Source: Gluconobacter roseus NBRC 3990
GTDB taxonomy: Bacteria > Pseudomonadota > Alphaproteobacteria > Acetobacterales > Acetobacteraceae
Direction of reading: 5' to 3'
Assembly (NCBI RefSeq): GCF_006538885.1
Contig: NZ_BJLY01000004.1
Coordinates: forward strand, 186,001-250,000
DNA: 64,000 nucleotides
Program-made: the position numbers and the translations under genes
The notes under the pieces: model-generated
Databases searched by the model: none
What the model was told of the DNA's origin: nothing
Seen by the model: only the letters and a program-made list of their open reading frames with translations
In this document: piece after piece, positions 10,804 to 13,690 of the stretch
How positions within the stretch are numbered: position 1 is the first letter of the stretch
Layout of the letters: each line of letters opens with the position of its first letter

Positions 10804-11117
10804 TGGTGTCCGCGAGAGGATTCGAACCTCCGGCCCCAGGATTCTTACCACTTCGGTTTTCACCGCCATGCCCTGAAAGCATGTTCGTGGTCTGGACTGT
10901 CTCTTCACCACAGCCATCGACAAGGAAGGCCAAGGTGTCACCCGTACAGTCTCTACACCTTCTTTCCGATATGCCGGAAAGCTTGGCTCGGGATTGGCAC
11001 GATCAAGATGATCAGAGCGTTCCCCGAATTTGAGCGAATCCACCATGCGGTTTCCCATCATGGCGCCCAATTCAAACCTTAGGAATCCTGTGCTCTATCC
11101 TGCTGAGCTACGCGGAC
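10804..11117 (-). tRNA. tRNA-Arg (anticodon CCU) interrupted by a group I intron
   Basis: Joining 11117-11081 to 10843-10804 on the minus strand gives a perfect 77-nt tRNA with an encoded CCA. The acceptor stem is GTCCGCG/CGCGGAC, the D-arm GCTC...GAGC, the anticodon stem CAGGA/TCCTG with loop TTCCTAA (anticodon CCT at positions 34-36), the variable region GGGCC, and the T-arm GGAGG-TTCGAAT-CCTCT. The discriminator is A. The 237-nt insertion lies immediately 3' of the anticodon. Without intron removal the anticodon arm cannot form in the mature RNA. Self-splicing group I introns in this same tRNA gene are known from other Alphaproteobacteria such as Agrobacterium. This tRNA reads the rare AGG codon. 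Confidence 0.95.
10844..11080 (-). ncRNA. Group I intron (tRNA type) inside tRNA-Arg(CCU)
   Basis: The boundaries follow from the tRNA fold. Exon 1 ends in U (position 36 of the anticodon) and the intron ends in G (...GTGGTAAG), the two hallmarks of group I splice sites. A GGG triplet in the first 20 bases of the intron (AATTGGGCGCC) can pair with exon CCU as an internal guide, forming a U-G pair at the splice site. The P7 helix is visible as GACTGT (10946-10951) pairing with ACAGTC (10895-10900), the latter in the conserved context GAAGAGACAGTCC. At 237 nt it has no room for a homing endonuclease. It is probably of the small IC3 tRNA class, though the subclass needs a structural model. Confidence 0.88.
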
Positions 11118-11581
11118 GAACAACTGGATGATATCCCGGTTACAATATTCCTGCAACCATGGTCATTCCCTCTTCAGGTAGAGAAAAGCCTCGACACCAG
11201 CGCTCGGGCGCCTGTTTCGTCTAGCAGGAACATGCGCGTAAATGCTCACGAAACAGCCTCGGTCAGACAGGAAAAAACGGCATAATATGTTTATGCTATC
11301 TAAACCTTTTCTGGCTAAGCTTTCGGGTGAGGCTTCAGCTATGGCCTTGCAAGGCACCTCTTTTCCATCAAAAAGGTGATCTGTTTTCTGGTAGTACCAA
11401 ATCCTGAGTAGGATCGATCGCATTCGCGCCTGTCATCCTACACAACATCTCATCGTGGAGGTGTTGCAGGTTTGACTGGGTTGAGAATTGCCATGATCTG
11501 CATTGCTTATGACGACATACTGAACCAGTTCGGGCTTTTTGCCCTTCCCGGCCGGGGGCGCTGAAAGTGGGGGCGGCAAAG
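11118..11581. other. Non-coding gap between the split tRNA and the regulator gene
   Basis: About 460 bases with no gene that I can support. This is the region upstream of the tRNA on the minus strand and of the regulator on the plus strand, so both promoters should lie here. The stretch around 11270-11310 is AT-rich (AATATGTTTATGCTATCTAA). I could not pick out a convincing -35/-10 pair in either direction, nor repeats or mobile-element ends, although a tRNA flank is a common integration point. Confidence 0.5.
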
Positions 11582-13690
11582 ATGATGGAAAGTGCACCCC
11601 GCCACGTCCGCGAGACCGATCCTACGCTTCTGCGCCTGAGGCTGATCGGGCAGATGGAGGCAAAAACCCTTACAGGCGAGAGCGTCCTTCCTGTTGGGGG
11701 CAAGACACGGGCCCTTCTGGCTATTCTGGCTCTTTCTGATCGAAAGCCGGTCCTGCGATCCCGTCTTGCGGAGCTGCTGTGGAGTCAGCGTCCCGAAGAC
11801 ATGGCCCGCGCATCGCTCCGGCAGGAGATCCACCGCCTTCTGGATGCCCTGAGTCCACTGGGTGTGGATGTGATTGATGTCCAGCGCCATTCACTTGCCC
11901 TGAAGCCGGCGCTGACATCTGTCGACGCCGAGAGGCTGCTGACGGCCAGTGTCCGAACGATCGACAGCGTCACGCCGCCCGACGAGCCATTGCTTGGTGA
12001 ACTGGTTGGTGTAGATCCCGCGCTGGATGACTGGCTTGTCCAGCAGAGGGAACGACTGTCAGCGCATCTTCAGCATGTTTATGAAAATGCTGTCCGAGAA
12101 CTGACCGATCCGGATCAGGTCGAGGACATGGCAGAACGCCTGCTGAAGTTTGATAACCTGAACGAGATTGCCTGGCGCGCAAGAATACAGACCGCGCTCC
12201 ATCGCGGAGATCAGGGGCGGGCAGCAGCACTTGCTGATCAGATGAGCCATCTGTTCGGGGATATTGAAGGACATATTCCGGACCCCGCGACCCAGTCCCT
12301 GATTGCGAATATCTCGACGCAAGCTCATGGCAGCGAAGTCGCAAATGATTTCTCCCAGGCGGTGCTGCCGACTGGAGGACCCGACATTCCTTTCAGCGCG
12401 CCCATGCCACGACTGGACCCAATGCTGGCCCTGCCGCTGCATTATGCTTCGCGCGACCCTTCATCTGTGGAACCTCGCCGGATTTCACTGGTGTTCCTGC
12501 CGCCATCATGTCCCGATGGAAAGCTTGCGAAGCAGGCACAGGATCTGCGGGATCAGCTCGAGCTCATATTCGTGCACATGGGAACGTTTGATATCCTTTC
12601 CGTTCCCGAGCCATCTTTGCCGGATCCCGTCAATGCGGCGGCAGTTTATCGAAGCTGGGGCACGGATTACATTATTTCCGGAAGTCTGCGCGCAGGACTT
12701 GATGGCGCAGATAACCGGCTCATTGTCCGCGTGCTGGATGCACGGCGCGGTGGTGTCATTATCTGGGGGACACATTACGATTTCCCATCCGCTGGTCCAG
12801 ACGCTGCAAAAAACAGTCTGCTTGCACCGGCACAGGCGATGCAGTGGAATATTTTCGTCGTAGAAGCCCGGCGGATCGCTGCGCGTCCGGATGCAGAGCT
12901 GTCCGCCCTGGGCATGGCATTAAGAGCATTCATGCTCCTTCTGCGCCATGACTGTTCTTTTTTCGACCGGATCGGGGTTCTGCTGGAGCGTGCGACCGTT
13001 CTTGAGGAAGAAGATGGAGCGATTGCTCTTATTGACGCGCTCCACTGCTATATCCGGTTCCTGAACGACTGGAGCGCGGATGCCGAAGCCGTGTTTGCGC
13101 GTGGGCTTCAAAGGGTCCGGGCCGCAGTCTCGCTGATGCCGGATCTACATGCCGTCGAGGTCCTGCTTGCAGCCTATCTGATGTATGACCCCACCATGCA
13201 AAGTACGGCGGTTTCGGTTGCCCAGGCTGCAGCGGAAGGCATTTCCCGCAATGACCAGAACCACAGGGATTCTCCTGACTATCTGATGGCTTCCATTGTC
13301 CTTGACCTGCTGCAGGGCAGGACGAATGCAGCCGCCACTACCGTAAAGGTTCTTCTTGAAAATGGTTGTCGCTCCCAGTTGCTGGAACTGCTGCGACCGG
13401 TTTTCATGATGATCCTGCTGCTGGGAGAAGACTATCAGAAAGTAATTTCCATAGGCCGGTTGATGTCCGGTTTGTATCCGGTGTGCCCGAGTTCCCTCGT
13501 TTATTACCTCATTGCCCTGATTGAGACCGGTGATTTCCCGGAAGAGACCCAACAGGTCCATCAACACCTTCTGCGCCTGGTGCCTGATCTGACAATTTCA
13601 AAAATCGTCAGCAGGTTTCCTTTCATTGAGAAAGCGCATCAGAAAAGGCTGATGGATGCATTGGGTCGGGCTGGGCTGGTCAAGGGATAA
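11582..13690 (+). CDS. SARP/BTAD-type transcriptional regulator with TolB-like domain
   Basis: A 702-aa protein. The N-terminus (about residues 15-105) is a winged-helix domain of the OmpR-like SARP type: LRLIGQMEAKTLTGESVLPV, then KTRALLAILALS and LRSRLAELLWSQRPEDMARA. Residues about 140-235 form a BTAD-like helical repeat. A region near residues 300-430 resembles the TolB-like/adenylate-cyclase-associated module (GTDYIISGSLRAG followed by VRVLDARRGGVIIWGTHYDF). The C-terminal 250 residues are helical and TPR-like. It is likely a cytoplasmic activator; target genes are unknown. A GTG at 11567 is an alternative start, but ATG at 11582 follows a GGGGGCGG stretch. No transmembrane segment is evident. 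Confidence 0.75.
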   Translation: MMESAPRHVRETDPTLLRLRLIGQMEAKTLTGESVLPVGGKTRALLAILALSDRKPVLRSRLAELLWSQRPEDMARASLRQEIHRLLDALSPLGVDVIDVQRHSLALKPALTSVDAERLLTASVRTIDSVTPPDEPLLGELVGVDPALDDWLVQQRERLSAHLQHVYENAVRELTDPDQVEDMAERLLKFDNLNEIAWRARIQTALHRGDQGRAAALADQMSHLFGDIEGHIPDPATQSLIANISTQAHGSEVANDFSQAVLPTGGPDIPFSAPMPRLDPMLALPLHYASRDPSSVEPRRISLVFLPPSCPDGKLAKQAQDLRDQLELIFVHMGTFDILSVPEPSLPDPVNAAAVYRSWGTDYIISGSLRAGLDGADNRLIVRVLDARRGGVIIWGTHYDFPSAGPDAAKNSLLAPAQAMQWNIFVVEARRIAARPDAELSALGMALRAFMLLLRHDCSFFDRIGVLLERATVLEEEDGAIALIDALHCYIRFLNDWSADAEAVFARGLQRVRAAVSLMPDLHAVEVLLAAYLMYDPTMQSTAVSVAQAAAEGISRNDQNHRDSPDYLMASIVLDLLQGRTNAAATTVKVLLENGCRSQLLELLRPVFMMILLLGEDYQKVISIGRLMSGLYPVCPSSLVYYLIALIETGDFPEETQQVHQHLLRLVPDLTISKIVSRFPFIEKAHQKRLMDALGRAGLVKG

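Follow-up and report, generated by a model that had tools for sequence, protein, structure and literature searches.

A group I intron of a known alphaproteobacterial family splits the tRNA-Arg(CCU) gene of Gluconobacter roseus

The window analysed here, i.e. a stretch of 64,000 nucleotides from Gluconobacter roseus NBRC 3990 (contig NZ_BJLY01000004.1, positions 186,001 to 250,000), carries a tRNA-Arg(CCU) gene that is split by an intron. The gene runs on the minus strand from 11117 to 10804, and its parts are listed in Table 1. When introns are allowed, ARAGORN reports a 77-base tRNA-Arg(cct) whose 237-nt intron lies between ttcct and aatcc. The insertion point directly follows base 36 of the anticodon and precedes base 37, and the joined exons give tRNA-Arg(CCU) with an encoded CCA. 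A reading made from the sequence only had already placed the gene at 10804-11117, a span that proved exact, although it did not name the strand. It had also proposed exons of 37 and 40 nt that join to a tRNA with encoded CCA, an insert directly after the anticodon, a U at the end of exon 1 and a G at the end of the intron, and all of this was borne out.

Table 1. Parts of the split tRNA-Arg(CCU) gene and of its intron (window positions).
Feature	Positions	Strand	Basis or remark
tRNA-Arg(CCU) exon 1, 37 nt (5' strands of the acceptor and anticodon stems, D arm, loop as far as U36)	11081..11117	-	ARAGORN with introns; boundary from empty allele
Anticodon CCU, the 3'-most three bases of exon 1	11081..11083	-	pairs with guide GGG
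Group I intron, 237 nt, terminal G	10844..11080	-	RF00028; model R1
Internal guide sequence GGG (P1 3' strand)	11066..11068	-	invariant, 49/49
P2 hairpin, GAAA tetraloop	11041..11065	-	covarying helices 2 and 3
P3 5' strand	11032..11037	-	helix 4, 100% paired, 3 double-change pairs
P4-P5-P6 domain	10957..11027	-	helices 5-8
P7 5' strand, guanosine-binding site by homology	10947..10951	-	invariant; RF00028 alignment
P3 3' strand	10938..10943	-	covariation in alignment A1
P8 hairpin	10907..10936	-	helix 10
P7 3' strand	10895..10899	-	invariant in A1
P9, P9.1, P9.2 (GAAA loop), adjoining the 3' splice site	10847..10891	-	helices 11-13
tRNA-Arg(CCU) exon 2, 40 nt, A37 A38 start, CCA end	10804..10843	-	ARAGORN; empty allele

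Two observations identify the insert and fix its borders. The Rfam group I intron model RF00028 matches the window with 45.3 bits (E 2.3e-10 for the 551 bases searched) over 10872-11085, the window intron covering the full length of the model (model positions 1-253); in the whole 2.88-Mb genome this is the sole match (E 2.8e-10). The covariance-model check proposed with the sequence-only reading was thus positive by E-value, though the score stays below the curated gathering score of 50. Moreover, the contiguous joined-exon 25-mer GAGCACAGGATTCCTAATCCTGGGG (at most 3 mismatches) is present in 111 of 397 genomes of the family Acetobacteraceae and in none of the 14 genomes of the own genus. The uninterrupted gene joins exactly at the predicted splice sites, and this empty allele reads CCU. 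Since both the covariance match and the joined exons were found, the split gene is confirmed as real and chance is excluded. Other joins were considered and rejected: in the window gene, splicing after position 32 also allows a cloverleaf, and most Arg(CCU) loci also admit cloverleaves by joins that give the anticodons AUG, AAG or ACG. The window join after position 32 would result in the anticodon AAG, and it was rejected because the P1 pairing fits CCU, the empty allele is CCU and AAG is an unusual anticodon.

Standard annotation passes over this gene. Without the intron option, ARAGORN finds no tRNA in the window, and Rfam at gathering scores gives no match there; a default cmscan misses the intron because 45.3 bits are below the cut-off of 50. 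The split gene is overlapped by four open reading frames (63 to 147 amino acids), of which the two tested have no Pfam match. The warning that automated annotation may miss the gene or call proteins over it was therefore justified: in this genome, default tools omit a tRNA gene, and spurious open frames lie over it. The intron itself, a small group I ribozyme, has neither a reading frame nor a homing endonuclease gene of its own. The problem extends to the relatives, as RF00028 matches 117 of the 397 Acetobacteraceae genomes under strict filters, whereas R1, a model built from these introns themselves (42 of the 49 introns of alignment A1, aligned as A2), matches 187 under equally strict filters, so introns of this kind are under-reported in Rfam and tRNA annotation. 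R1 gives 178.2 bits with the window intron, which is among its source sequences. The authors of tRNAscan-SE state that their program was not designed for group I introns in tRNAs, and they describe the cases of fMet and Ile2 (PMC8450103).

The fold of the intron was examined by comparison with its homologues. Alignment A1 contains 49 of 51 selected diverse Arg(CCU) introns of Acetobacteraceae (L076 and L104 were excluded for their long inserts), and 64 pairs were named for P1-P9 including the P3/P7 pseudoknot, which makes 3130 cells over the 49 homologues. Standard pairs fill 93.9% of these cells, as compared to 82.8% in column shuffles and 28-42% when the partners are slid by 1-3 columns; as the structure was drawn on the window sequence with the homologues in view, it has some advantage over the slid versions. 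Changes on both sides occur in 37 of the 64 pairs, and double changes fill 401 cells, where the shuffles give 126.9 (sd 8.5) and none of 500 reaches as high. The weakest of the five covariation measures is the number of further pair types, for which 7 of 500 shuffles reach the observed value. Double changes are present in P2, P3, P5, P6a, P8, P9, P9.1 and P9.2; P4, P6 and P7 are invariant and thus give no covariation information. The P7 helix that the sequence-only reading had noted is there: its 5 bp, GACUG/CAGUC, are the same in 49/49 aligned homologues. Hence, the intron has the P3/P7 pseudoknotted core with P4-P6 and P8 that characterizes group I introns. The 5' splice site carries a U.G pair (U of the exon, G of the guide) in 49/49 homologues, the terminal base of the intron is G, and the P1 pairing C-G, C-G, U.G (CCU/GGG) is found in 49/49. 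A P1 formed by UUCCU/GGGAA, as first drawn by eye, was rejected: the homologues place this stretch in the end of P2 that is capped by GAAA, and P1 is CCU/GGG. Some parts fit less well: the first intron pair of P1 is nonstandard in 7/49 homologues, one pair of helix 3 (P2) is unformed in 23/49, and in P8 (72.8% of cells paired) the outer part is well supported and the inner part poorly. The weight of the evidence lies on covariation, since the single-sequence free-energy fold is only modestly unusual (z -2.35, with 2/100 shuffles equally good). The GAAA loops of P2 and P9.2 presumably fit subgroup IC3.

The split gene is common among the relatives of G. roseus. RF00028 gave 120 matches in Acetobacteraceae, and the 119 loci examined (the weakest, in G227, was left out) comprise 91 of the Arg(CCU) type and 28 others. 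The split tRNA-Arg(CCU) with the insertion at 36/37 is present in at least 151 of the 397 genomes, a lower bound made up of these 91 and of 60/60 further loci among the 150 R1 matches listed. All 14 sampled genomes of the genus, the own one included, have it. Neither the split nor the intact form was found by these criteria in 136 of the 397 genomes, part of which may be explained by 151 being a lower bound. One genome (G368) has both forms, a split gene (L243 on contig C23) and an uninterrupted tRNA-Arg(CCU) at C35:6217-6241, which is either a second copy or contamination. A pattern scan of public genomes gave at least 119 stretches. Of the 119 listed, 111 have a 3' exon that fits, and these include stretches from Bartonella, Mesorhizobium, Azospirillum, Pseudorhodobacter, Aureimonas and Magnetospirillum. 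Of the eight stretches without a fitting exon, two (L252 and L312) are on contigs with a confirmed split gene, and a third, from a Peribacillus record, probably matched by chance. Upstream of the split gene lies a gene for a 707-aa protein (11567-13690, plus strand) without Pfam match, and in Gluconobacter, Asaia and Swaminathania the split tRNA likewise has a homologue of this gene next to it. The gene was found within the fetched stretch (up to 8 kb) in 11 of 20 named loci, and misses mean little as the stretches are limited; among the Gluconobacter/Neokomagataea loci tried, it was found in nine of 11. This shared neighbour fits inheritance within the genus, and with 14/14 genomes and 9/11 loci the intron looks like a stable resident of the genus. 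A consensus scan found neither a sigma-70 promoter nor an intrinsic terminator for the split gene; a TTGCAG-N17-TATCAT stretch seen by eye ahead of it is too weak for a promoter claim.

The window intron belongs to an already known family, in which it is an ordinary case with widespread relatives; Paquin, Heinfling and Shub reportedly described tRNA-Arg(CCU) introns of alpha-purple bacteria in 1999. Group I introns in this tRNA are known from Agrobacterium and other Alphaproteobacteria (PMC7717549, which cites the 1999 study). The sequence-only reading had correctly named this alphaproteobacterial family. The best studied counterpart is BbgpI from Bartonella bacilliformis, which was unannotated until it was found by hand; it is reported to splice in vivo and to self-splice in vitro (PMC7717549). 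BbgpI and the window intron have the tRNA, the anticodon and the family in common, but BbgpI comes from another genus and its splicing has been shown experimentally, whereas we know the window intron from its sequence alone. Closer to G. roseus, five acetic acid bacteria bear a mark in Table 1 of PMC4596401 whose footnote says that a group I-like sequence interrupts one of their tRNA-Arg genes. The five are Asaia, Acetobacter pasteurianus, Gluconobacter oxydans, Gluconacetobacter and, as deduced from the reference given, Komagataeibacter; Granulibacter has no such mark in this table. These bacteria are of the same family as G. roseus and include its genus. The footnote itself (PMC4596401) gives no anticodon, structure or splice sites, and these have here been worked out for a relative.

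From the Bartonella homologue and from the biochemistry of group I introns, we infer that the window copy would splice in the cell by two transesterification steps. The transcript would fold into P1-P9, and a guanosine bound at P7 would attack after the anticodon, at the U.G pair that P1 forms between CCU and the guide GGG. The freed exon 1 would then attack after the terminal G of the intron, and the joining of the exons would yield tRNA-Arg(CCU), for which no other gene was found in the genome. Expression of the split gene is assumed in this scheme. The element is very probably a self-excising ribozyme of the known alphaproteobacterial tRNA-Arg(CCU) family, inserted between bases 36 and 37, and the match to RF00028 together with the covarying fold supports the proposal of the sequence-only reading that a group I intron interrupts this gene. 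The intron might instead be a relic that has lost splicing, which would leave the tRNA gene dead and AGG to be read by tRNA-Arg(UCU) alone. The presence of tRNA-Arg(UCU) in the genome and the result of the promoter scan would be compatible with such a relic, as would the fact that splicing is here deduced from sequence. However, the catalytic helices are intact, the exons make a complete tRNA, and the split gene has been kept in all sampled genomes of the genus; the fold varies across the family by compensatory changes, whereas decay would break helices and exons. We therefore regard a relic as highly improbable. There is next to no chance that the insert is an intron of the archaeal type spliced by proteins, or an unrelated insertion: archaeal and eukaryotic tRNA introns are also positioned close to the anticodon, and the site resembles theirs in this respect, but the covariance match and the covarying fold are those of a group I intron, and the two overlapping frames tested encode no Pfam domain. 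The window intron thus very probably excises itself.

A further idea is compatible with self-excision: slow or conditional splicing might tune the supply of tRNA-Arg(CCU) and thereby the expression of AGG-rich genes. The search for other tRNAs able to read AGG that the sequence-only reading had called for returned 42 tRNA matches in the genome (a draft assembly of 12 contigs), among them an intact tRNA-Arg(UCU) (L012) and no uninterrupted CCU tRNA. The assembly may lack a few tRNA genes, since neither Ile(GAU) nor Ala(UGC) is among these matches. AGG is infrequent, accounting for 83 of 1279 arginine codons in the 36 long open frames of the window. Wobble may allow tRNA-Arg(UCU) to read AGG as well, so that the codon, for which no dedicated reader other than the split gene was found, probably does not depend on this gene alone. 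The low use of AGG, the presence of the intron in 14/14 genus genomes and its position in the only CCU tRNA found would suit a regulatory role. On the other hand, the dependence of splicing on conditions is a conjecture, the UCU tRNA can probably cover AGG, and in other genera of the family an uninterrupted gene suffices, so that we consider such tuning very unlikely. The earlier suggestion that splicing could limit the decoding of AGG is likewise weakened by the intact tRNA-Arg(UCU) and the rarity of the codon: a limitation is at best conceivable.

Introns of the same kind are found in other tRNAs. The 28 Acetobacteraceae loci that are not Arg(CCU) comprise Leu(UAA) (11), Leu(CAA) (4), Thr(GGU) (3), Arg(UCU) (3), Asn(GUU) (2), Thr(UGU) (1) and Lys(UUU) (1) as well as three without a host call. 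For 19 of them a join passed by script and seven were read by eye (L109, L134, L143, L148, L153, L159 and L147, the last without a host call), and L036 and L058 gave no split gene. Six of the 19 (L097, L098, L100, L114, L119, L141) had two or three passing joins, and the choice was made by the known tRNA and the guide; Leu(CAA) is a doubtful call for L053 and L173, where the splice would follow base 33, and so is Lys for L188. In a class-wide sample, RF00028 matches 31 of 385 genomes, four of them of the own family; the 27 loci examined (three gave no split gene and three were read by eye) add Lys(CUU) and more introns in Leu(UAA), Leu(CAA), Lys and Thr(GGU). Model R1 recognizes 25 of 26 Leu(UAA) introns with E 1.6e-37 to 5.3e-29 and one with 5.8e-10, and all loci given to R1 score E <1e-22 except for two Asn introns and one Leu(UAA) intron. 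The Leu(UAA) introns share the ribozyme core with the window intron and also sit in the anticodon loop, but they are inserted between bases 34 and 35, and in 21 of 26 their guide is GAG, which pairs with CUU. For cyanobacterial Arg, Gly and Lys tRNAs, PMC5733544 describes inserts of 22 to 49 nt under the name of group I introns. A group I core does not fit into such a length, so these inserts are a different matter.

The guide triplet pairs with its own exon in nearly all cases: Arg(CCU) 34/34, Leu(UAA) 25/26, Thr(GGU) 4/5, with the fifth seemingly displaced by one base, and others 15/16. Where the tRNA has C-U-U at 32-34, GAG is the commonest guide (Arg(UCU) 2/3 and Thr(UGU) 1/1 in addition to Leu(UAA)); introns in Leu(CAA), Lys and Arg(CCU) carry GGG as a rule, and GCC is found in 4/5 Thr(GGU) introns. 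Only GCC and, in part, GAG discriminate, since GGG can pair, wobbles included, with every exon end of the set but that of Thr(GGU). Fifteen members of this intron family from other Alphaproteobacteria sit in tRNA-Lys, Thr(UGU), Thr(GGU) or Arg(UCU) (L097, L098, L100, L114, L119, L120, L152, L155, L166, L172, L174, L183, L184, L186 and L188), and in 14 of them the guide fits the host exon; the exception is L186, whose guide seems displaced by one base. Three tRNA-Leu(CAA) introns read by eye (L109, L148, L153) have their apparent splice site after C34, with C-G replacing U.G. In the best-ranked matches of the open-licence literature, alphaproteobacterial tRNAs for Asn, Thr and Arg(UCU) are not described as hosts of group I introns, which does not prove that no such report exists. 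While a split Arg(CCU) gene is of a known kind, the spread of one ribozyme over several tRNAs is the less expected part and worth following: with one core in eight different tRNAs, according to our own assignments, and guides that nearly all fit, spread at the RNA level becomes testable.

A tree was built from 81 intron cores, i.e. the 83 chosen loci of alignment A3 without the partial matches L032 and L033; its bootstrap was unsettled, and three rows are on long branches. With this reservation on the bootstrap, one branch separates the 34 Arg(CCU) rows, which include three Bartonella introns inserted at this site, from all others (92/77, not starred), and the same holds for Thr(GGU) (99/80) and Arg(UCU) (100/99). 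On the tree, Leu(UAA) needs five changes of host, Leu(CAA) four and Lys two, and all host labels together need 10 where the minimum possible is seven. Beside Arg(CCU) stands a branch rich in Leu(CAA) together with one Lys intron (84/81 and 82/80, not starred). We tentatively propose that the Arg(CCU) intron is a branch of one ribozyme family that hops among the anticodon loops of alphaproteobacterial tRNAs by reverse splicing of RNA, steered by the three-base guide; this seems to us possible rather than probable, the tree having neither root nor direction and the RNA-level mechanism being a proposal. Given the neighbours of Arg(CCU) in the tree, a change of the guide from GAG to GGG could have allowed these introns to pass from leucine to arginine tRNAs. 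Two Acetobacteraceae introns (L034 and L044) group with the three Bartonella introns (98/95); we do not claim a transfer, as the identities do not clearly favour Bartonella and one Bartonella row has an unusual base composition. The two tRNA-Asn(GUU) introns, L032 and L033, have the top RF00028 scores in the family (78.5 and 77.6 bits) and match the Arg(CCU) model only partially; they are perhaps a separate lineage.
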